IMG/VR virus record: IMGVR_UViG_3300042898_000008
Span: 1 to 24,308 of that record
DNA: 24,308 nucleotides
Strand: one strand, 5' to 3'
From: a virus
Under the pieces are notes generated by a model. The model was not told where the DNA came from, ran no database searches, and saw only the letters and a program-made list of their open reading frames with translations. Below, piece by piece: positions 1-14,068 of the stretch. Numbering within the stretch: the stretch's first letter is position 1; every line of letters begins with the position of its first letter. Position numbers and translations under genes: made by a program.

Positions 1-353
1 TTATCCGTAATACTACTCACATTCCCGCTTGCACGAATAGCCACAGTGCCAGTGCCGTTAAAGTTTACCCATGCTCTACACATATAAAGCGGCGCAGTCC
101 CAGATACAGTGGCTAGTTGAGCAGAGTCGAATGTAGGTGTGGCTAGAGTAGGCGAAGTACCCAATACATTAGCACCAGTACCCGTAGAAGTAGTAACTCC
201 TGTGCCGCCACTCAATACTGGCAGAGCAGCGTTTAGTCCACCAGTCAGCGTTGTTACTCCAGTGACTACCAGTGTTGTTGCTATAGTCTCACCGGCAGTA
301 TTTACTACACCCGGAGTTGTAATTCCTAAACTGCCATCGATAATTGCTGCCAT
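1..353 (-). CDS. Tail fibre protein, N-terminal part (runs off the window)
   Basis: The reading frame opens at ATG 353-351 and stays open to base 1, giving about 117 residues of a longer protein. It begins MAAIIDGSLGITTPG, a common start for short phage fibre proteins. A Gly/Thr/Val-rich stretch with LSGGTGVTTSTGTGANVLGTSPTLATP follows, then APLYMCRAWVNFNGTGTVA, which resembles a domain I recall from the C-terminal part of many phage tail proteins. The ribosome binding site AAAGGG lies just upstream, inside the end of the endonuclease gene, which overlaps this gene by 28 bases. By position it is the third short fibre gene after the gp17-like adaptor. It probably contributes to host attachment, but no receptor-binding tip is visible because the gene is cut by the window edge. 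Confidence 0.75.
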   Translation of the reverse strand, partial: MAAIIDGSLGITTPGVVNTAGETIATTLVVTGVTTLTGGLNAALPVLSGGTGVTTSTGTGANVLGTSPTLATPTFDSAQLATVSGTAPLYMCRAWVNFNGTGTVAIRASGNVSSITD

Positions 354-1027
354 GATGTACCCTTTATAAATCTACATTTATCAAAGTGCCAGTTGTTAGC
401 TGCGCCTTTCTGGTGTCCTGTTTTGTGGCAATGGGGACATATCCACTTTGGCTTCTGCTGCACTAAATCACTTAAATGCTGCCTCTGTTCTTTAGTTAGT
501 AGTACCCCCTTCTTTTTAGAGGGTCCTTTATGCGCTTCCCGCATCTTTAGTATTGATTCTGCGCTATGCTTCTTGCCGCGCATAAAAGAAGGCTTGCCTA
601 TCAATAACCTTCTGTTAATCTCACGCCTAGCTGGGTCTTGCATTTGCAGTCTAACACTATCACTAATCTTCTTTCTTGTTTCTTCAGAGTACGTCTTGCC
701 CTTATTCCACGGAACTTTACCTAGATTCATTCCCTTCTTTGTCCGTGGTGGGTATCCGCCCCCAGCAGTTATATTCCAGCCAATCCCATCTGCTGACCTT
801 AGCTTCTTCTCAATGTCTAAACAGTAATCTTTCTCGCCAATTACTATCTTCTCTTTTACTAAGTTATCCCAGCCGTACTTCTCAATGGCAAAGTTAAGAT
901 GTCTATTCCCCGATCTCTTAAAGTGCTGAATCCATCTTTTCTCAGCAGACTTGGATATTCCTACATAGCCTTGAGTAAATATATCCGTATGATCTAAACA
1001 GTGAATCCAGTAAATGCTATGCTGCAT
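326..1027 (-). CDS. GIY-YIG homing endonuclease with NUMOD3-like repeats and zinc finger
   Basis: This 233-residue protein is a free-standing mobile endonuclease. The GIY-YIG nuclease domain covers about residues 4-91: IYW at 5-7, YVG at 21-23, the catalytic-type Arg31 in EKRW, KYG at 50-52, Glu73 in the DIEKK segment and Asn85 before a glycine run. Two NUMOD3-like DNA-binding motifs follow, GKTYSEETRKKIS (110-122) and GKKHSAESILKMREA (151-165). A zinc-finger-like segment has CPHC at 197-200, His214 and Cys218. Such proteins cut DNA at a target lacking the insertion and spread by repair. The start codon overlaps the TAA of an 11-codon fibre stump (TAATG) and I see no good ribosome binding site of its own, so translation probably depends on reinitiation. 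The 3' end overlaps the following fibre gene by 28 bases. All recognisable catalytic residues are present, so it looks intact. Confidence 0.92.
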   Translation of the reverse strand: MQHSIYWIHCLDHTDIFTQGYVGISKSAEKRWIQHFKRSGNRHLNFAIEKYGWDNLVKEKIVIGEKDYCLDIEKKLRSADGIGWNITAGGGYPPRTKKGMNLGKVPWNKGKTYSEETRKKISDSVRLQMQDPARREINRRLLIGKPSFMRGKKHSAESILKMREAHKGPSKKKGVLLTKEQRQHLSDLVQQKPKWICPHCHKTGHQKGAANNWHFDKCRFIKGTSWQQLSMAV

Positions 1028-1062
1028 TAGCTTGAGAGAGTTCCATCGAGCGTAATTGCCAT
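1027..1062 (-). pseudogene. 11-codon 5' stump of a fibre gene, now a leader peptide before the endonuclease
   Basis: Two bases after the stop of the upstream chaperone-like gene, a strong ribosome binding site (AAAGGAG) leads to an ORF encoding MAITLDGTLSS and then TAA. The peptide matches the usual start of short fibre proteins, and also the start of the fibre gene that resumes at 353 (MAAIIDGSLG). The TAA overlaps the endonuclease ATG as TAATG. The simplest reading is that the endonuclease was inserted into the 5' end of the fibre gene. The original ribosome binding site and first codons were left here, and the fibre gene now restarts from a second copy of its N-terminus. Being a stump is inference; the ORF, the binding site and the similarity are direct observations. 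Confidence 0.6.
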
Positions 1063-1063
1063 A

Positions 1064-1405
1064 TTATTCTCCTTTCCAAACTTCTGTAGGCGGTGTAGGC
1101 CAGACTATCTCACCAGCAGGTGGGTAGACAGCAATCTGACGAATCACTTGGCGATAAGCAATGAACTGATCCTGATTGCTAAGACGTGGATTGGCTTCTG
1201 GTAGCCCTATGTCTGCGATGGTTGTCCAGTCAGTGCTGTTTAGGATGCCAACAGCGGTCTGTGCATTAGTCATCTTCTCTGATTCGAGTTGTACTGCTGC
1301 TTTGTCATAGATAACTGGATTGCCATCAACATCAAAGGCATCATCGCCAACAGTGCGAACAGTCTGAGGATAGAGTTTGTATAGTGCTGAAATGAAGTTG
1401 TTCAT
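1064..1405 (-). CDS. Phage tail assembly chaperone-like protein
   Basis: A 113-residue protein beginning [18 protein letters not shown] and continuing with [20 protein letters not shown]-like [14 protein letters not shown], and [18 protein letters not shown] near the C-terminus, ending in a WPTPPTEVW motif. This pattern (polypeptide describing D-G-N, then TDW, then YR..IR.....P) is what I recall of the phage tail assembly chaperone family encoded next to fibre genes. Such proteins are thought to help fibre folding or attachment. It overlaps the preceding fibre gene by four bases (ATGA), with GGAG upstream of the start, so the two are probably translated together. The family call is from memory of the pattern; a small structural role is the alternative. 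Confidence 0.6.
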
Positions 1406-2067
1406 CCCTGTATCTCCATTAGGGTTATGGTGGAGGTAGATATTGTATTGCCAAAATCTTGGACATAAGCTGCGGCATTATTATTGTAAGAAGCAAATTG
1501 AGTTTTATATGTGGTTGCAGATGTAGTTGATGGAGAGTCTAAATAAGAAGCAGATACAGAATACCCCCTATTTTGTGCTGTAGTGGCAGTAAATCCAACA
1601 AGGTCTGTAGGAGTCCAAATTTGAGTAGCACCTCTTAATAATCTAAGGTCTACTCCTGTACTATTTGTAACTTTTCCAACACCATTTTGGGCTAACAAAA
1701 CAAGAATTTTGCTTGATGTGCTTCTTGGAGTAATAGTTGCGGTTAATCCTGTGTCAGCTAAACTTGAAGTTGCATTTGTTACTAAAGTAGAAGTAGTCCC
1801 CATAACCACCTGTAAAACCGTTCCCGCAGGCAATGCTGCTTTAGCCACTCCAGTACAGTTAGTCAGCACTCCACTTGCTGGTGTACCCAATGCTGGTGTA
1901 GTTAGCACAGGGCTTGTTAGGGTCTTATTCGTCAGCGTATCAGTCGTGGCTTTCCCGATTAGGGTGTCGGTAGCAACTGGTAGAGTTAGTGTTCCTGACC
2001 CTGCAACGGCTGGAGCAGCTATTGTGATGCTGCCAGAAGTGTCCCCTGCGACTACGATTGAACTCAT
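1402..2067 (-). CDS. Short tail fibre-like protein (221 residues)
   Basis: The N-terminal half is Thr/Leu/Ala-rich, with the motif pair [14 protein letters not shown] and [16 protein letters not shown] (about residues 38-74), a signature of phage fibre shafts. The C-terminal half (about 83-221) looks like a beta-rich globular domain of the kind at fibre tips: [43 protein letters not shown], ending in ITLMEIQG. The start has an AAGGAG site seven bases upstream and overlaps the end of the preceding small gene as ATGA. It is followed, again with an ATGA overlap, by the chaperone-like gene at 1064-1405, so the two form a fibre/chaperone pair. Which receptor it binds, if any, cannot be told. Confidence 0.75.
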
Positions 2068-4549: not shown

Positions 4550-4561
4550 TAGTTACGGATA
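4550..4561 (-). promoter_or_regulatory. Intergenic motif TATCCGTAACTA before the fibre genes
   Basis: On the coding strand the motif starts at the base right after the TAG of the giant gene and lies 40 bases before the gp17-like start. The same 12-mer occurs at 22624-22635, and its octamer core TATCCGTA also at 16489-16496, always in an intergenic gap. It may be a promoter element, a protein-binding site or an RNA processing site. I see no convincing sigma-70 pair here. Confidence 0.4.
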
Positions 4562-7500
4562 CTATTGGTTCGGTCTATTTACGTCCTTGCCAGAGATAAC
4601 TCCACGAGTCACATCCATAACCCCTTCTGGACTTACCCTGCCCTGCGCCATATCGGCAGCGTATCCAAGAGGCTTTCCCATCTGGCCAAGAGGAAGACCG
4701 GTGATCATTCCAAGTGCGGTCAACGTATCCCGTATAGCCTTCTTCCAGGAACCGTCTTCAGCGATTGCTTTGTAAAGAGTATTGGGTGCGCGAACAGTTG
4801 ACTCAAGTGCTGATATTGATGCGGACGTACTTATACGGTCATCATATGGCTTAGAGTTCCACGCATTAACACCGGCCATGATAGATGGTCCAACTATAGG
4901 TATCATCGCTATGGCAGTCCTGGCTTGCGATCCAAAGAATAAAGCCATGGCATCATTCTCGTCCCACTCATCATCGTCACCATCTGCGAACCCACCGGCA
5001 CCCTGTACTATGATTTCAGACAGAACTGCCGGGATCATAAATGCGAATGTGTAGATGTAAAGCAATTGGCCCATTCCTTTTTTAACTCCGAATTCTTTAA
5101 CAGTCTTGGTGAATTCGGTGCCTAAAAGGTTCGCTTGCATATTGAAGTACGAGTAAAACATAGTGAATGCTCGAACGAATGCGGTGCCGGTCTCGAATCT
5201 GGACACATCCTCTGGGGAGAAACTTCCCTGAGTGAGTCGAACTGCTGAATCAGCCGCTCTAACAGCATCCCTCTCATTGCCAGTTTCGGTCATTGATTGG
5301 TTATACGCTCCGACCCATACAATAGTATCAACGGCATTTTGAAGACCTTGCTGCATGAAGTATCCGTGCTTACCAGCAAAGCTTCTTAATTTGTCATACT
5401 TGCTTGGATTCAGCAGTAGCTCATCAATAGTCTTTGAGATTTCAAATTGCTGGTTACTCATCCTGGTATTCATATACTTGGATTTTTCTGCAACCATTGT
5501 TGACGTATCTGTTGGCTGGCGAGTGTATAACCACAAAGCATTTCTTAGATTGCCTGGCTTTACCTTCAATGCTCCAATGGACAGGCCGGTCACCTGCTGC
5601 AATGCGTTGGTTACGTTACCAACCATCATCTGCATCCCGGTCCTGGTTCTTACCTCACTGAAGAACTTGTCTGCCAATTTGCCACCGGCTCCCTTCATTG
5701 GGGTCTTGATCATCTGCATCGCAGTTCTTTGCAGCCAAGGCACAAGCATATCTCCACGGATGGTTGGATCTAGCCTATCCATCGCGGCAGAGAATGTCTG
5801 GCTGGTCTTTACAATCTTTGCGACATCCTTAATCTTTGGCTCGATGTAAGTGAATCTTAGAACCTTATCAAGATGAGATGGGAAGTATCCAAGGTCAAGC
5901 ATTAATGGCTTGTTGTATTCAACGCGGCCCTTGGTGAATCCCCTGCCGGTGGTCGGGAACATATAAGAGTTATCGGTCTGACCGGTCTCTTGTTCGTTCC
6001 GCATAGCAGCATCGGTGTTAATCCATGGGTCGGTCACCGCAGGTACATATCCACCTCTGTATATACCGAATGGAGTTATAACTGGGTTAGCGGAGATCTC
6101 GTTGAAGTAGAAACCGTACATATCCTTGTGTACTTTCTGAGCCGCTGGCTTCATCTCTTCCAGCAGATCCCAGACAGACTGAGCAAAATCAAAGTCAACC
6201 TTGGAAAGCCTGTTCTCAGCGTACATCCTCGACATGAAGTTATCCCATCGAGCAGTATTTAATGACCCATCCTGGTTCTCTTCAGCCCATCCACGGCCAA
6301 GTAACATCTTCCTTTTGTTGGACTCGTTACCGGTATGGAGAATGGCGTGGAGTAGTTCTGCCTTATTCTTGAATGTGTATCCAATCTCACCGGCGGCTAT
6401 AGATCCAGCAGACAAGCCCTTCTCGACCGACTTAACTATATCAAGATACTTTTGGAGGTACTCATTCTTGGCGATTCTGTATTCAGCAACAGACTCAGAG
6501 ATCGGATTCCAGATGTACTTTCTGAACGGACCATCCAACCTACCCCCGTCCATGGCATCAACCCAGGACTCGACTCTACGCATTGCGGCCCTGGCACCCA
6601 TCAACATGATCTTGCGCTTATCCCAATCGGACATAGCCTTGTCATATCCACGGCGCTCTTTCTTTGTGTCAACAACATCTATGCGGTCAACGAGTTCGGA
6701 GATGATAAGGTTTCTATCGACCATCTTCCCGTCAATCTCCATCTGCTTGTTTCTGCGAGACAGGTGCCATAAAGCCTGGATCTGCTCAGACAAGTCGGTG
6801 AATTGGTCCGTTGTCAGTTCGGTAATTGGCTTGGCTTGTTGCAAGTGAGCAGTGATCATTGGCTCTATTTCTGCATAGAACTCTGGATCGTACTCTTGGA
6901 CCTTGGCCAGGTATGCTCCGGCCGGTAGTTCCGTCTTGCCAAGCCCGTAGTTTGCTAGGATTGCCCTGGCTGCGCTCACAAGATTCATGTCGCGCTTATC
7001 TGCGATTCTAGAGTCAGCAGTGAATACCTTCTTGAATAGATCGAGAGACTTAGCAACCGACCGGTTAACCTTGATGGCTTCCGATGCAAGCTGGTTGTTC
7101 AGCAACTGGTTGCGCTTGGCTTCCATCGCCCCAGCAGTGTCTCCCTTCTTGAGAGCATTAATTGCCTCTTGCGCTGCACGAGCCTCTGCAATCGAATAAT
7201 TCTTTGGTTTGATAGTACCTATAGGCCTCGATGCCAATATCGCAACAGCGGCTTGCCTAGCAGCTTCTAGCATCACTCTGACAGGAGCAGTCGCCTTCGC
7301 AAGGTGCCTTAACTCAACAGACACGAACCTTGCGCGAGCTTCGTTGTGTATTGCTGATTCGACAGCAACTTCAATAGACTTTGGATCTTGCAGTTCTGCG
7401 TGTTCGGCCAGCATTCTTTCGTCTGTTCTAACATTGACCTCATCGTTAAACTTACGAGCGGAGACCAATGCCCTAACAAGGTCATCACCAGACTTGAATC

Positions 7501-10500
7501 CGAACATCTCGGCAACTATGTCCGGGTGTATCCCGTCATGCAGGGTTCCTTTCCCGGTAACAAGCTTTTTACTTTTTAATCCGCTCCAATCGAACATCCC
7601 AGAAACCGGAGCGAAACCAGGAACGGCGAATTCTGCTGCATCCCCGTACATATCGGTTAATGCGTTGAACGATAGAAGGTGTCCGCCATCAACTCTGAAT
7701 ATACTTCCGTCAGCGCCAACAGTTTCTCCGCTTCTAATCCATGTGATAGCCCGATATACCGGATCTGCCATTACTTCATTAACAACCTTGTCTCTGAGAG
7801 ACTTGCGGATCTCGGCGGTCTCCTTCTGCATCTCCTTGAGAACCCGGCTTCTTGCGCCAGATAGCCACTTCATCTGACGTAGGCTTGCAGTCTGCATCTC
7901 TCCAATGGCTGCGTTGGTGGCTTCCTGGCTCATCTCTTGATAAGCGGCCCACTCGCTGTCATCCATCCCCGATTGTTCTTGAGTTTGGAATATAGGCACC
8001 ATGTTACGGACGGTCTCTGTCTGCTTAATCTGCTCTGAGGTGGCCAGCATTCTATCCATAACCTGCCTAACCTCGCCGGTCAGGATAGGTAGGTCAGTGC
8101 CATGCTCTTGCCGGTAGATAGCGTTGAGGTCATCACGGATTGATTTGTATACCCTAGCCAACCATGCTGAGAACCTATCAAAGATAGTCTGCAACTTGAT
8201 GTTGGGTGCCTTGCCCTCGAACAGATAGATCTCGTAGTTGTAAGCGAACTGCTCGTGGTACTTTCTCTGTTCATCCAGAGACATTTGGTTCCAGGTAGCA
8301 AGATCTTTTACACCAAACCAGTCGAGGACGGTCTGCATATCTTGCTTGGATTGCTCTGTTGCGTTGGGATTCGCTGCCATGTCCGCATATACTGACAGGA
8401 AAAAGTGAGCGGTCTCGTGGAGGAAGGTGGAGTTATCTGCTTCCGTCCCAAGAATGGTAGTTAAAGTGGTTGGGTCGAATCCGCCACGGGCATCTTCTTG
8501 ACCCTGGACCGGCTGCCGCAATAGGTTAGATGGGCGAGCTTCTGGGGTGGTCTGCTGATCTCCAACACGCCCCTCTGTCAAAGCGAACTCAGGTAGAAGT
8601 CCGGTCTTCTGATCTGCAAATATCGTATCTTCTACTTTTGCCGTGCGGTTATGCTCACCATGCGGACCAAAGTTTGTCCAACTGTTCTGTCCCCGTGTCT
8701 CACTAGTGAGGGCAGCAACTGCTGAACCAGTGAATAATCTAACGTGGGCTTGCCATGCGTTCTCCTCTCCGGCTGCACGGAATCCAGCCCCTTCCAGCCC
8801 GTGACCGAATGCATCGTGAACAGCTCGGAAGAGGTCGTTTGCTAGGACTTTTCTAGGCTTGCCATCGAACATCCATACCAGGCCGGTATCTTCTAGTAGC
8901 GGATTATTTGATACGTTTTGATCGACAGTCCCGGCGGTATCTCCAGATCCAAAGCCAGCCTCTGTCGAGTACACGCCCATACGTTGGTTGGCCCGTAGAT
9001 CGCGCATCGCGTTCCATGGGTTCCCAGCATAAGGGTCGTTGGTATTGTCGTAGAAATAGAATTCATAACCGGCATCTACAAGGGCCTGATACTGCGCCCT
9101 TGTCTGCTTGATCATATTTTGATACGCCTCAGCAACCACAGGGTCTTGAGGGTCATGCTTCATTTCAGCGTAGGCATCGGCAATTCTAGCTGCCCTAGCC
9201 GGATCTACTTGGGCGTATTCTGATTGCCGTTTAAGGTCGATTCCATTGGCTGCTGCGTATTGCTCTGCGACTCTGACAAGTTTGATGTCGGGGCTGGTGT
9301 CCTCGCCACGAACCGGTCCACCTTCAAGCGGCGCAAGGCCTCCGCTCGAATACTTTCCGCTTCCGTTTCCGGTCCCTCTGGTGCCAATTTCGGCGATTGA
9401 TTCTCTGAGGAGACTATTCGCCTCTTCACGAAACCTATCATTCCGTTTTTCAACGGATGCCCGTCCGGCAGTGGCTGGTTCATTCTCAGTGTCATAACCG
9501 TAATCCTTCTTATCAATTAAAGCTGAAAAAACATTAAGACCGTCAACCTCAAACTCTGGCCCAATGTGGTTATGTATTGTACTCGCAAATTCTTCATTAC
9601 TTAGACCAGATTGGTTTAAAATTACCATGTAGCCATCTTGGGCCGTATATCCGTTAACAAGCTTTTTACCGTCCTTCTCAAGCTCCCACAGCTTGTCATA
9701 CATAGCCGCAATTTCTCTCTCTCCATAGCCCTCTGGAAGCCCAATAGAGACCGCTCCAACAGCAGAAGTGCCTGTTATTTGCTGCTCACTTACAACCACC
9801 ATCGCATCCTGAGATAACGCGTGACCGATAAGTTTTGCTGCGATCACAGCCAGTTCTTTTCTGTCAACAGATAAAGACAGGGATGGGTTTGTTGCTCCCA
9901 GGTACCCGCCAATAGTTGCCGAAACCTTCCCGGAACTCCCGATCTCTTCAAGTATTTTAGGGATAATCGCCGCTGATACTTCTTGAGAAATTCTAAACTT
10001 ATCATCCTGTGACAAGGCATTCCATGCATCAGTCAGTTCAGCATCATTAGGATCCGGAGCAACTTCATATAGGACGTTTACAGGGTTTGGCTTGGCCCCA
10101 ACATTACCAATGGCATCGATTGCCTTTTGCGCCACGCCCTCATAGGTGCGCCCTACCGTGTCATTGAATGGAACACTAGACCAACTTGGGGGAGTGACTC
10201 CACCGGCCAAGGTAAATATTTCCTTCTGAGCCTGTTCTTGGTCTATCTCTCCAGACTTATACCGCGACCATATCGCGTTTGCGGCAGCCTTCATCCCGCT
10301 TTTTTTGGACGATTCAAAAAGCCCTCTAGCAGCTTCCCAGGTTATTGACTGCATCTGCCTCGGAAGTATTCCTCTGGCTTCGGCAGCCCTTTTATAAGCC
10401 TCGTGAATAATTGGGTAGGTGCCATTCAATCCAGTATTGCTAGATGAAGACGATCCAGCGCCGCCAAATGCCTGAGTAACTTCATCATCATTAGCCGCTA

Positions 10501-13500
10501 ATGGGCGCAAGTTCGCAGCGGCCACCGCATGGGTATCTATAGTCGCAAACCCAAGAGGACTGTTCGGAGCGAACAAATTATTATAGAAGTTCCGTACCTT
10601 GTGTTCTTTTCCAATCTGGTAATAAGTATTGCTGGCGGTTCCCTCTGTCAGAATAGATACTGCTTTGGCAATGGCTCCAAATGATTTCCACGCCATGGTT
10701 GCATCGCTTCCGTCCTTTATCGTAACGTAGTCAGATACGCCGCCCTCTGGGGTTAGTATTCTGTACGAACGATTATTGTGGGTCTGGTCGAAAACACGAA
10801 TCCATCTTGCGGCGATCTCTGGGTCATTAAGCACCTCACCCAAAGATTTCCCTTCGGCCATTTTCATCCTTGCCTTATCTTCCGGCTTTTCCTGTGGGAT
10901 TTTATTTGCTTCTTCTGTCATCGCACTATCCCAGACAAAAGATTGCATTCCAAAGATAATGTCAGCAACTCGTTCTGCTGAACTTACATTTGCAAACCAT
11001 CCATTTTGTGGAGATAGAACAGCGATAGCCGCTGCCGCTTGCATCTCGCTAATGCCATATCTGTTCGCCCACTCCTCCGTAGTTTTCCTTCCACCGTCAT
11101 ACCAAAGCTCTGCTCTCTCGCGCATCTCGGCAGGGAAAGAGTCGTGCAGAAATAGAAGATTGCTGACCATGTGGTCGATAATAGACTCGACATTCTTCTT
11201 TACATCCCTTGCCCCAGCACCCGTCAGCTTTCTAAAGTTTGCCGTGCTTTGCAATGCTTTTAAATTCTTGGCAAGTGTCACCTCATCAGACATTGTGACA
11301 TCAAAATTAATGTTCAATACCGAACTCATAGGATCTTCGGTGGCTTTGGCTGAAGATGGAAGACGAGTTGATAACGACTGATATAAAAACCCAGATTTTG
11401 GCGCGTATACTGGATTCCTTGCCATAACCAGTGGGCCTATCTGTATTACCTCATCTGCGCTTACAACCGGCTCCATTGTTTTACGGTCGTAGAAATACGA
11501 ATGCCTCTCTGGGTCCATTCCAACTTGAATCCACTCAGGATTGTTAAATACTTCAGTGACTTTTGTGTGGGCCTGTTCTTGAGTAACCGGATTCCATTTT
11601 CCTTCGATAGTGGCTATCGTTGCCTTCCCTTTACCGGCGGCTATATTCAAGCTGGCTTTCTCTTCGTTGCCAAATACAGCATCAGTAATAGATGCCACAT
11701 TATCGTAACCTATAGCCTTTCCCGCCGTTCCCTTCCCTATATTTGATCTCTTGTTATGTATAGCAACAATCCATGCGCCATGGTCTCTGTATGAAGGTAT
11801 GTCTAACCTTAGTCCAACCTCATCACCTTTGCTCAATGTTTTGTATGCTGCCCCTATTTTGTCTACCTTGTCCGTAGTTATCGCTGACTTCATGTCATCT
11901 AAAGAGGTTGGTGTAGGCGCACTTTCATATGGGGCTACTGGCTTTAATTGATTTACAAGCTTGTCATAATCTGCTGCCGTTATCTCTCCATTCTTGAGTT
12001 GGTTTGCAGCGGCGGTCAGACCTTCTATGCGTTTAGTTACATCCTTGTAATGCATATCAATTCTTTCTTGATTGAATGCGGCCTGCCCTTCAGCAGTAAC
12101 CTTGTACATATACTTATTGAAGAAATCCATAGGCATCATGTTCTGATTGGCCGCCTGGGTGACTACAAAGTCACGGACGAACTGAGCATTAATTCTTGAT
12201 ATTGGATCTGCATATCTTCCAGTCTGCTTGAGTTGCTGGAACATGATGTCTTGCACTTCATGCGATGACTTAACGAAAGCATCGTTTGTTTGTTTTTTGG
12301 CTATCGCAGCGAGAATCTGCTCTGACATCTCCGGCTGCATTGCAGTTGCTTGCTGGACCTCGCTAAGAGATGGGGCATCTACAGATCCCCTGGCATGAGG
12401 AGATAGCATTGCACCAATATCGGTTCCAACTACCTTCCCGATCCAATCATTCATTGGAATTACAATGTCTCCACCTACGTCCACGGAGTCAACTTGTGCG
12501 CCAATAGATGGGATCGCTTTACCGACCTCGACCGGATCTATTTTGTTATCTGTTAACGCCTGTTTGAATGTATTCCTGTCTATATAAACATCAGTAATAG
12601 GACCGTCAGTTGTATTTGCCATATGAGCAGCAACTGAATCAGAGAATTTGTTATATGCATCAGGTGATTTCTGTTTTAAACCCTGCTCACCACCGGCAGT
12701 CTGCAACCTCTCGAATTCGCTTTTCTGCTTATTTGCTTTGATATGTAATGCAGCATTTGCAATAGACTGAACTATGGCACCAACATACGCGCCAATCTCC
12801 CCCGCATCCTGCGCCTCTGCCCACTTTATTTTTGACTCTGGGTTTGTCATTGCTCCGGCCATATCATGCAGAACATTCTCAGCGAGTTCTGTGATGCCTT
12901 CAACTCCGGCCCCAAGGCCAACAGTAATAGAATGATGAAGCCACTTATTAGATAACGCCAGGGTCTGTGGTGCCGATATAAAGAACTTTGTTGCAAGAGT
13001 GTTGGTAACTGCGGTAATAGCAGCGCCAGTTAATCTCTGAGCAGCCTTGTCTACCTCTGAAGCAGTTCTGGAAACTGGATCATTCTTTATCATCTCCTCC
13101 ATGGCAGTTGCTCCCTGCCCCAGCATCAATGATAGTGACGTTACTTTAGCTGCCGGTGAAGCCAGCCACAGCGCAACTTGTCCGCCAGCCTGGCCAACTC
13201 CCTCTGCCACCTGCTCGATCTTGTTCAGATTACCGCTTGGCCTTAAATACTTTTTACTGAAATCTTCAATACTTTGTCCAACTTCATATATTGGAGACCC
13301 TAATTTCAGATTCTTATCCCCAGTTTGGAAGTAAGCCAGGTCGTTTATTATTGATCCAAACCCCTTAATACCGCCACCAAGAAGAGACCCAACCGCTCCT
13401 GACCCAACCGCCTTAATCGCCCTTGCCGATTGCTCTACAACACTCAGTCCATCAGCATCCGGATGCGCAATCTTAGCGAATTCCGGGTCAGCGAAAAGCT

Positions 13501-14068
13501 TCTTTAATGCCGGGTTCATCCCGTTATCAGCGATTTCCTTTATTCTTGCCGCTCTCAGATCTTGGTGGATCTTCTCTCTATTCCTAGCAACAACATCCGG
13601 AGGGAGGCCAATCTCGCTTGATAACTTTTGATCTGCCGCAGCAACATCAGAGTTAGATTTAACAGCGTTGTCTATAGATACTGTTAGGTTAGAGTTCTGC
13701 TCTGACTTTAATGAATCAAGTAATTCAAATAACTGTTTGTTAGATGGCTGCGGTACAGAGAAATACCTGTCCCCTCTCTTTTGTATATTAGATCCACGAG
13801 CATTCTCTGCCGCAATAGCTTTGTCCCATGTAGGATGAAGAGACCCTTTAAGCATGATGCTGCTGCCTTCTGGGAGTCCGTGAGTTGCCATCTCCTGTGT
13901 AGTAACAGGAGCTACAGAACCCCAGTGACCGGCGTTCGGACCCGATGCAGCCGGACCCATGCCGGAAGATATAGCCCTATCGTAATCGTAATCCTGGCCA
14001 TTCGGGTTGAATTTAGATGTTGGCTTGGTTCCTGGAACAACAATTCCCAACTTCATTGGCTCTGCCAT
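4562..14068 (-). CDS. Giant polyvalent internal virion protein (3168 residues), gp16 position
   Basis: This gene follows the gp14- and gp15-like genes, where T7 has gp16, so the protein is probably packaged in the head and injected. Its architecture fits the phage polyvalent proteins described by Aravind and colleagues. The N-terminal quarter is Ala/Gly-rich and helical, with weakly hydrophobic stretches at about 210-430. A conserved-looking domain lies at about 740-890 (GLRLDIPSYRDHGAW). Residues about 930-1250 carry SPQN (1019-1022), ATIDTHA with Asp1178, and RQMQSITWEA, resembling an HhH-GPD DNA glycosylase layout. Next come an alpha/beta-looking region (about 1330-1480), an HDAFGH motif (1751-1756) with downstream Glu/His, and a zincin-like HETAH (1884-1888). 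The rest is largely helical, with hydrophobic segments near 2998-3025 and 3048-3068 flanking an acidic cluster (DGDDDEWDEND). No gp16-type transglycosylase motif is evident. Enzyme activities are hypotheses; the polyvalent/ejection call is firmer. It starts two bases after the previous stop. Confidence 0.85.
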   Translation of the reverse strand: MAEPMKLGIVVPGTKPTSKFNPNGQDYDYDRAISSGMGPAASGPNAGHWGSVAPVTTQEMATHGLPEGSSIMLKGSLHPTWDKAIAAENARGSNIQKRGDRYFSVPQPSNKQLFELLDSLKSEQNSNLTVSIDNAVKSNSDVAAADQKLSSEIGLPPDVVARNREKIHQDLRAARIKEIADNGMNPALKKLFADPEFAKIAHPDADGLSVVEQSARAIKAVGSGAVGSLLGGGIKGFGSIINDLAYFQTGDKNLKLGSPIYEVGQSIEDFSKKYLRPSGNLNKIEQVAEGVGQAGGQVALWLASPAAKVTSLSLMLGQGATAMEEMIKNDPVSRTASEVDKAAQRLTGAAITAVTNTLATKFFISAPQTLALSNKWLHHSITVGLGAGVEGITELAENVLHDMAGAMTNPESKIKWAEAQDAGEIGAYVGAIVQSIANAALHIKANKQKSEFERLQTAGGEQGLKQKSPDAYNKFSDSVAAHMANTTDGPITDVYIDRNTFKQALTDNKIDPVEVGKAIPSIGAQVDSVDVGGDIVIPMNDWIGKVVGTDIGAMLSPHARGSVDAPSLSEVQQATAMQPEMSEQILAAIAKKQTNDAFVKSSHEVQDIMFQQLKQTGRYADPISRINAQFVRDFVVTQAANQNMMPMDFFNKYMYKVTAEGQAAFNQERIDMHYKDVTKRIEGLTAAANQLKNGEITAADYDKLVNQLKPVAPYESAPTPTSLDDMKSAITTDKVDKIGAAYKTLSKGDEVGLRLDIPSYRDHGAWIVAIHNKRSNIGKGTAGKAIGYDNVASITDAVFGNEEKASLNIAAGKGKATIATIEGKWNPVTQEQAHTKVTEVFNNPEWIQVGMDPERHSYFYDRKTMEPVVSADEVIQIGPLVMARNPVYAPKSGFLYQSLSTRLPSSAKATEDPMSSVLNINFDVTMSDEVTLAKNLKALQSTANFRKLTGAGARDVKKNVESIIDHMVSNLLFLHDSFPAEMRERAELWYDGGRKTTEEWANRYGISEMQAAAAIAVLSPQNGWFANVSSAERVADIIFGMQSFVWDSAMTEEANKIPQEKPEDKARMKMAEGKSLGEVLNDPEIAARWIRVFDQTHNNRSYRILTPEGGVSDYVTIKDGSDATMAWKSFGAIAKAVSILTEGTASNTYYQIGKEHKVRNFYNNLFAPNSPLGFATIDTHAVAAANLRPLAANDDEVTQAFGGAGSSSSSNTGLNGTYPIIHEAYKRAAEARGILPRQMQSITWEAARGLFESSKKSGMKAAANAIWSRYKSGEIDQEQAQKEIFTLAGGVTPPSWSSVPFNDTVGRTYEGVAQKAIDAIGNVGAKPNPVNVLYEVAPDPNDAELTDAWNALSQDDKFRISQEVSAAIIPKILEEIGSSGKVSATIGGYLGATNPSLSLSVDRKELAVIAAKLIGHALSQDAMVVVSEQQITGTSAVGAVSIGLPEGYGEREIAAMYDKLWELEKDGKKLVNGYTAQDGYMVILNQSGLSNEEFASTIHNHIGPEFEVDGLNVFSALIDKKDYGYDTENEPATAGRASVEKRNDRFREEANSLLRESIAEIGTRGTGNGSGKYSSGGLAPLEGGPVRGEDTSPDIKLVRVAEQYAAANGIDLKRQSEYAQVDPARAARIADAYAEMKHDPQDPVVAEAYQNMIKQTRAQYQALVDAGYEFYFYDNTNDPYAGNPWNAMRDLRANQRMGVYSTEAGFGSGDTAGTVDQNVSNNPLLEDTGLVWMFDGKPRKVLANDLFRAVHDAFGHGLEGAGFRAAGEENAWQAHVRLFTGSAVAALTSETRGQNSWTNFGPHGEHNRTAKVEDTIFADQKTGLLPEFALTEGRVGDQQTTPEARPSNLLRQPVQGQEDARGGFDPTTLTTILGTEADNSTFLHETAHFFLSVYADMAANPNATEQSKQDMQTVLDWFGVKDLATWNQMSLDEQRKYHEQFAYNYEIYLFEGKAPNIKLQTIFDRFSAWLARVYKSIRDDLNAIYRQEHGTDLPILTGEVRQVMDRMLATSEQIKQTETVRNMVPIFQTQEQSGMDDSEWAAYQEMSQEATNAAIGEMQTASLRQMKWLSGARSRVLKEMQKETAEIRKSLRDKVVNEVMADPVYRAITWIRSGETVGADGSIFRVDGGHLLSFNALTDMYGDAAEFAVPGFAPVSGMFDWSGLKSKKLVTGKGTLHDGIHPDIVAEMFGFKSGDDLVRALVSARKFNDEVNVRTDERMLAEHAELQDPKSIEVAVESAIHNEARARFVSVELRHLAKATAPVRVMLEAARQAAVAILASRPIGTIKPKNYSIAEARAAQEAINALKKGDTAGAMEAKRNQLLNNQLASEAIKVNRSVAKSLDLFKKVFTADSRIADKRDMNLVSAARAILANYGLGKTELPAGAYLAKVQEYDPEFYAEIEPMITAHLQQAKPITELTTDQFTDLSEQIQALWHLSRRNKQMEIDGKMVDRNLIISELVDRIDVVDTKKERRGYDKAMSDWDKRKIMLMGARAAMRRVESWVDAMDGGRLDGPFRKYIWNPISESVAEYRIAKNEYLQKYLDIVKSVEKGLSAGSIAAGEIGYTFKNKAELLHAILHTGNESNKRKMLLGRGWAEENQDGSLNTARWDNFMSRMYAENRLSKVDFDFAQSVWDLLEEMKPAAQKVHKDMYGFYFNEISANPVITPFGIYRGGYVPAVTDPWINTDAAMRNEQETGQTDNSYMFPTTGRGFTKGRVEYNKPLMLDLGYFPSHLDKVLRFTYIEPKIKDVAKIVKTSQTFSAAMDRLDPTIRGDMLVPWLQRTAMQMIKTPMKGAGGKLADKFFSEVRTRTGMQMMVGNVTNALQQVTGLSIGALKVKPGNLRNALWLYTRQPTDTSTMVAEKSKYMNTRMSNQQFEISKTIDELLLNPSKYDKLRSFAGKHGYFMQQGLQNAVDTIVWVGAYNQSMTETGNERDAVRAADSAVRLTQGSFSPEDVSRFETGTAFVRAFTMFYSYFNMQANLLGTEFTKTVKEFGVKKGMGQLLYIYTFAFMIPAVLSEIIVQGAGGFADGDDDEWDENDAMALFFGSQARTAIAMIPIVGPSIMAGVNAWNSKPYDDRISTSASISALESTVRAPNTLYKAIAEDGSWKKAIRDTLTALGMITGLPLGQMGKPLGYAADMAQGRVSPEGVMDVTRGVISGKDVNRPNQ

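Follow-up and report, generated by a model that had tools for sequence, protein, structure and literature searches.

Free-standing homing genes are usually pictured as lying between genes or as splitting them. Endonuclease insertions that split genes and coupling through overlapping start and stop codons are both known from T4-like phages, and translational coupling has been proposed for mobE in nrdA of Aeromonas phage Aeh1, where start and stop overlap as UAAUGA (PMC2988022). The homing endonucleases of phages cleave alleles that lack the element, which is then copied in by repair, with co-conversion of its flanks (PMC2988022). Mobile endonuclease ORFs that replace gene ends have been described in atp6 of Allomyces macrogynus and in atp6, atp9, cox2, and nad3 of Glomus; the endonuclease ORF brings a replacement C-terminus, the native end is left as a relic, and the differences between the two are largely synonymous (PMC3630166). 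The part of the description of phage MEP301 considered here reads gp20 of that phage as a host-DNA-degrading endonuclease (PMC8024684, MW452941) and makes no mention of a duplicated fibre start (PMC8024684). Likewise, neither tail fibres nor start codons are mentioned in the portion considered of a survey of phage endonucleases at genetic-exchange boundaries (PMC10448857), and we found no earlier description of a phage 5′ stump followed by a restart in the open-licence literature.

Here we compare such an arrangement with these systems. It very probably reflects the entry of a GIY-YIG homing gene into the first codons of a fibre gene, which left a leader stump, with translation by reinitiation, a replacement fibre start, and several separate origins.

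A homing endonuclease gene between a stump and a fibre start

The window (the whole stretch of DNA analysed, a virus record of 24,308 bases) derives from a podovirus-like phage whose structural genes are encoded on the minus strand. Its capsid protein matches Pfam GP7 and is 88.5 per cent identical to the capsid protein of Limnohabitans phage DC33, a likeness that suggests a Limnohabitans-like host. DC33 itself (GenBank PQ492659) is filed under Inoviridae despite this capsid identity with a tailed phage, which is probably a taxonomy error in the record. A single ORF of 3168 codons (4562-14068, minus strand) takes up more than one-third of the contig. At the low end of the window, fibre and chaperone genes form an array, with three to four fibre modules in tandem, in which we recognize the following features:

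4509-3001, minus strand: fibre gene
2980-2324, minus strand: fibre-like gene
2354-2064, minus strand: small gene
1402-2067, minus strand: second fibre gene of the array (fibre-like), uninterrupted in the window
1064-1405, minus strand: tail-fibre assembly chaperone-like gene (PHROG phrog_4912, tail fiber assembly, 1.6e-5; Pfam PF16778, 4e-4, below cut-off)
1069-1075, minus strand: AAAGGAG ribosome-binding site, originally that of the fibre gene and now that of the stump; the same leader precedes intact fibre genes
1027-1062, minus strand: 11-codon stump MAITLDGTLSS-stop; codons 1-8 match the old fibre, LSS-stop comes from the insert
1030-1038, minus strand: left edge of the insert, CTCTCAAGC then TAATGCAGC, identical in alignment in the window and in the related loci L002 and L003
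326-1027, minus strand: GIY-YIG homing endonuclease ORF, 233 aa (Pfam GIY-YIG and NUMOD3; phrog_314), its ATG overlapping the stump TAA
800-1021, minus strand: GIY-YIG catalytic domain, residues 3-76 (Pfam match; Y6/Y21, R31, E73, and N85 conserved)
662-721, minus strand: NUMOD3 DNA-binding motif, best stretch, residues 103-122 (Pfam match)
374-439, minus strand: C-terminal CxxC...HxxxC (CPHC...HFDKC in translation), a probable zinc finger; Cys and His positions conserved in the alignment
360-365, minus strand: AAAGGG ribosome-binding site of the fibre restart, within endonuclease codons
3-353, minus strand: restarted tail-fibre gene, MAAIIDGSLGITTPGVV... (PHROG phrog_11355, tail fiber protein, 2.5e-4); body as in the intact fibres of L054 and L059

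The elements on which the sequence-only reading built its case (the AAAGGAG site, the stump, the TAATG overlap, the AAAGGG site, and the fibre restart at 353) are all present base for base. Specifically, the chaperone-like gene directly upstream ends in TAA at 1066-1064, the stump runs from its ATG at 1062 to its TAA at 1029-1027, and the endonuclease ATG at 1027 shares one base with that stop codon, giving TAATG at 1029-1025. The restart ATG at 353 lies 28 nt inside the endonuclease ORF, and its translation, MAAIIDGSLGITTPG..., runs off the contig end.

The endonuclease matches phrog_314, a PHROG family of homing endonucleases (E = 4e-25), and NUMOD3 (E = 1.5e-9; 38 bits against a cut-off of 20.4), and its match to GIY-YIG (PF01541; E = 9e-5) is just above the curated cut-off (23.1 against 22.6 bits). 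Its profile only grazes the solved structure of I-TevI (1mk0; E = 0.13). The predicted active-site residues Y6, Y21, R31, E73, and N85 are invariant in an alignment of seven relatives. With these catalytic residues, a DNA-binding part, a site that is polymorphic among relatives, and no intron or intein, the gene shares these four attributes with free-standing GIY-YIG homing endonucleases.

In the window, the stump pairs with the anti-Shine-Dalgarno at -8.7 kcal/mol, the fibre restart at -4.5, and the endonuclease at +0.5; the medians over nine stump loci are -7.9 (stump), -5.6 (fibre restart), and -1.8 (endonuclease), against a background median of -0.9. As in mobE-type coupling, the endonuclease start overlaps the upstream stop and is without a ribosome site of its own, and there is no other in-frame start upstream of the endonuclease ATG in the window. 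Because the endonuclease has neither a Shine-Dalgarno sequence nor another in-frame start, and because there is a T4-type precedent, we infer with good support that it is made by termination-reinitiation at TAATG: ribosomes would most likely translate the leader, terminate at its TAA, and start again at the ATG that overlaps it. The fibre would be expressed from its restored frame and its own ribosome site.

Empty sites and insertion junctions

A search with the chaperone protein identified 31 related loci, in which the insertion locus was recognized by the conserved end of the chaperone gene and the leader. After removal of duplicates, 27 distinct chaperone-fibre junctions remained, 24 of them intact and three (the window, L002, and L003) with the endonuclease. 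The leader AAGGAGAATAAT-ATG opens an uninterrupted fibre gene in most of the 31 loci, bearing out the proposal that the stump has retained the ribosome site of a fibre gene; the intact N-termini that follow it include MAITLDGNLGITTPAE, MAITLDGTLGITSPAE, MITLDGTLGITTPSE, MSVIINGDTGITTPAE, MSMILDGSAGLTTPGVV, and MALILDGTTGVPVTTV. The continuous fibre gene predicted for endonuclease-free relatives was found at all 24 such junctions. The opposite pattern, in which the 11-codon ORF and the start at 353 exist without an endonuclease, was found at none of the 24, and the stump itself is present in 3/3 carriers and 0/24 endonuclease-free junctions. When codons 1-8 of the stump are joined to the restart from codon 9 on, they form one open fibre frame, MAITLDGTLGITTPGVVNTAGETIATTL....

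From its ATG on, the stump is identical over 26 nt to an intact fibre gene that follows the same leader in L079. The stumps of the other two carriers read MAVIINGD-LSS-stop and MTMILDGD-LSS-stop. Judged by this identity and by two independent contigs with the same left junction, the resemblance of the stump to a fibre start is far above chance. The left edge, CTCTCAAGCTAATGCAGC, is exact in all three carriers, after codon 8 of the MAITLDGT, MAVIINGD, and MTMILDGD alleles, with a boundary that could lie up to 4 nt away, since CTCT follows in the L079-type allele. The right edge reads ...TTTATAAAGG(GTAC/AAAC)(A/G)TC, and the fibre start beyond it differs between carriers: three different complete starts (MAAIIDGSLG, MAIVLDGNLG, and MALILDGSLG) are found there, and the last endonuclease codons with the stop sit inside the fibre start (TCA TGG CTA TAG in L002). 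The carriers of stumps or fusions, here and below, are all metagenomic contigs except MEP301, and an assembly error is unlikely because separate contigs share the same junction.

The restart had been taken for a second copy of the fibre start. It is indeed a complete fibre start, but not that of the allele in the stump (MAAIIDGS vs MAITLDGT), and it appears to belong to another allele rather than to be a copy of the old one. The stump allele of the window is found in relatives with ITTPAETVQ-type bodies, and its fibre body, GVVNTAGETIATT, in relatives with MSMILDG or MSCIIDG starts; stump and body represent different allele classes in the window and could share one class in L002 and L003. This difference in class within the window suggests that the fibre allele was swapped when the endonuclease arrived, or afterwards.

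The insert comprises 685 nt, nearly all of it endonuclease ORF. Its first ~250 bases are 92-100 per cent identical per 50-base block between the window and L002/L003; identity in the rest is 32-80 per cent per block, with 44 per cent amino-acid identity from residue 98 on. The C-terminal half of the window endonuclease is closest to that of L208, another stump carrier (58 per cent). The endonuclease is a mosaic of a catalytic half (800-1027) almost the same as in L002/L003 and a diverged DNA-binding half (326-720), as if domains had been swapped at an unchanged insertion site.

The exact 18-base junction is also present in a few unrelated contigs (L202, L203/L205, and L204), where it belongs to SQANAA-coding repeats in fibre-like genes; we rejected a common origin, since by our estimate a few chance matches are to be expected in a collection of such size. 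Separately, a stump-like ORF that does not lead straight into an endonuclease occurs once: in L219, a fibre-like 10-codon ORF (4561-4593, MTIIIDGTDT-stop) overlaps a different gene (MFGFSSFS...) through TAATG. It is possibly a relic of a lost endonuclease or fibre.

Endonuclease relatives at other fibre genes

Alignment searches yielded 142 distinct endonuclease places. Most of them directly precede one of three kinds of gene: fibre-type genes, a gene starting with MSVIMTYDSLV, or a gene carrying the motif ICDRCK close to its start. Clear stumps or fusions away from fibre genes were found at none of the 142. Two further branches of the clade (L258, L259, L265, and L285; L006, L417, and L428) are stumpless and lie directly 5′ of MSVIMTYDSLV... 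and ICDRCK genes. Of 80 other fibre-associated relatives, 64 have no recognizable stump. The stump-plus-restart, which the sequence-only reading singled out as the notable part of this fibre locus, is therefore real but not unique to it: it recurs across the endonuclease clade, sometimes as an in-frame fusion.

Homologues of the window's second fibre gene (1402-2067) carry the endonuclease and a stump in L238, L303, and L049, making the window's copy an empty site. In L238 and L303, this gene is cut as MSSISVAGDSS, followed by E and a stop and then by the endonuclease; L068, which reads uninterrupted where L238 has MSSISVAGDSS and the endonuclease, is an empty site of the L238-type insertion. 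There are further terminated stumps at fibre genes, perhaps including MPVSIV-stop. In-frame fusions comprise MASIKLKGDT-SLYW (L274), MASIKLQGDT-SLYW (MEP301), MSSIKLTGDT-SLYW (L354), MASTINATTSSGIVATADN-KCSVYW (L350, with 19 fibre codons), and L347. In the cultured phage MEP301, the fusion is gp20, and gp19 is MASIKLQGDVSG. Behind each stump or fusion, wherever the contig extends far enough, comes a fibre gene whose N-terminus is similar and which has a ribosome site of its own. In L274, 2/27 nt differ between stump and restart, and in MEP301 8/27, all of the differences being synonymous.

The left junctions fall into about eight types, mostly 1-3 codons past the conserved glycine of the fibre N-terminus, and the stump and fusion loci occupy about eight separate branches of the catalytic-domain tree, in which deeper branches are weakly supported. 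These sequence comparisons show that a stump or an in-frame fusion arose several times within the clade, the number of events being an estimate. Additionally, very similar endonucleases come in pairs of which one member has a stump and the other (L297, L302, and L348) is stumpless (L296/L297, L300/L302, and L303/L348), which argues that the stump is set by the landing place and is not an obligatory part of the element.

In related freshwater phages, unrelated endonuclease-like genes, of a different GIY-YIG group and including an HNH-like protein, stand directly before MAYG-type fibre genes (L236, 2674-3189; L239, 2371-3024; L237, 3894-4538; L244, 1273-1767), and no stump was found at these four. 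Since unrelated endonucleases also adjoin fibre genes, homing genes in general seem to use fibre starts as a landing zone. In the stretches examined, no endonuclease of the window's type lies at the fibre genes of DC33 and zth2-2, two cultured phages with related capsids.

Origin of the arrangement and its known parallels

The empty sites show that a free-standing GIY-YIG homing endonuclease gene entered the 5′ end of the tail-fibre gene just past codon 8. The old fibre start and ribosome site persist as a leader of 11 codons, with a stop that overlaps the start of the endonuclease. At its end, the endonuclease gene supplies a new ribosome site and runs into a complete fibre start, apparently of another allele; with the frame preserved, the fibre would presumably still be made whole. 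The end of the stump is the probable cut point of the recipient gene, which would place the cleavage site near fibre codons 8-11. A cut there would leave the recipient's codons as the stump, and homing would copy in the endonuclease together with the fibre start of the donor.

Alternatively, recombination within the tandem fibre array may have moved an endonuclease and its fibre behind the start of another fibre without any involvement of endonuclease cutting. The three to four tandem modules, the plain shuffling of fibre alleles among relatives, and the different allele classes of stump and fibre body in the window would all fit such an exchange. We nevertheless regard it as unlikely: the left junctions recur at codons 8-11, at the motif G-D/T-T/S, in two fibre families, a pattern not expected of random exchange. 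Far less probable still is that the 11 codons encode an independent leader peptide, or form a chance ORF, that regulates the endonuclease and bears no relation to the fibre. Such a leader would account for the strong ribosome site and the tight TAATG coupling, but the codons match intact fibre genes on the same leader (over the 26 nt shared with L079) and vary between carriers as fibre alleles do, and the empty sites already contradict it.

Proteins with GIY-YIG and NUMOD3 parts are often encoded in introns, which would favour an intron- or intein-borne endonuclease and a spliced fibre. We rejected this explanation as hardly credible, because positions 1-2500 of the window have no Rfam match at E ≤ 1 and because an insert that is almost wholly ORF leaves no room for a group I core; moreover, the fibre is equipped with a start and a ribosome site of its own, and the endonuclease stop sits inside the fibre start.

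Entry of a homing gene into the fibre 5′ end remains our preferred explanation. A bolder version of it is possible but rather doubtful: the element may be a cut-and-rescue cassette that cuts a conserved site at the fibre 5′ end, captures the ribosome site by stop-start overlap, brings a replacement start, and drags a new fibre allele, and with it a host-range allele, along. If so, it would invade an important gene without breaking it, and the stump would be a fossil of the replaced fibre allele. More generally, one clade repeatedly enters the first codons of tail-fibre genes and makes good the damage by bringing a replacement start. Rescue-type gene drives are paralleled here in nature, and the fungal atp6 case is mirrored at the 5′ end. 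Host range is set by fibres, so homing at fibre genes could actively spread fibre alleles. The stumps preserve the displaced allele and point to the likely cut site, so that the idea is open to a direct test.

Among phage systems, the locus resembles the T4-type seg and mob genes, especially mobE, in being a free-standing phage endonuclease whose start overlaps an upstream stop, with insertion into coding sequence and co-conversion of flanking markers as common ground. It differs from mobE and mobA, which split their target into two reassembling polypeptides, in that the target loses only eight codons and receives a full new start. With gp20 of Methylophilales phage MEP301, it shares a related endonuclease (44 per cent identity), a fibre gene, and a duplicated fibre start; unlike in the window, the stump of MEP301 is fused in frame to the endonuclease and not terminated. 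As in the fungal mitochondrial mobile ORFs, the gene entered by an endonuclease ORF stays functional through a replacement copy of the end it lost, relic and replacement flank the endonuclease ORF, in-frame fusions occur, and the differences between relic and replacement lie largely at synonymous sites. In the fungal genes, however, replacement affects the 3′ (C-terminal) end, and the core gene retains its original start, whereas here the 5′ end is replaced, and the phage relic lies upstream, as a leader of the endonuclease, at fibre genes in an array of structural genes. The fungal mobile ORFs that replace 3′ ends are the closest known kind, and the arrangement in the window is their 5′-end counterpart in phages.
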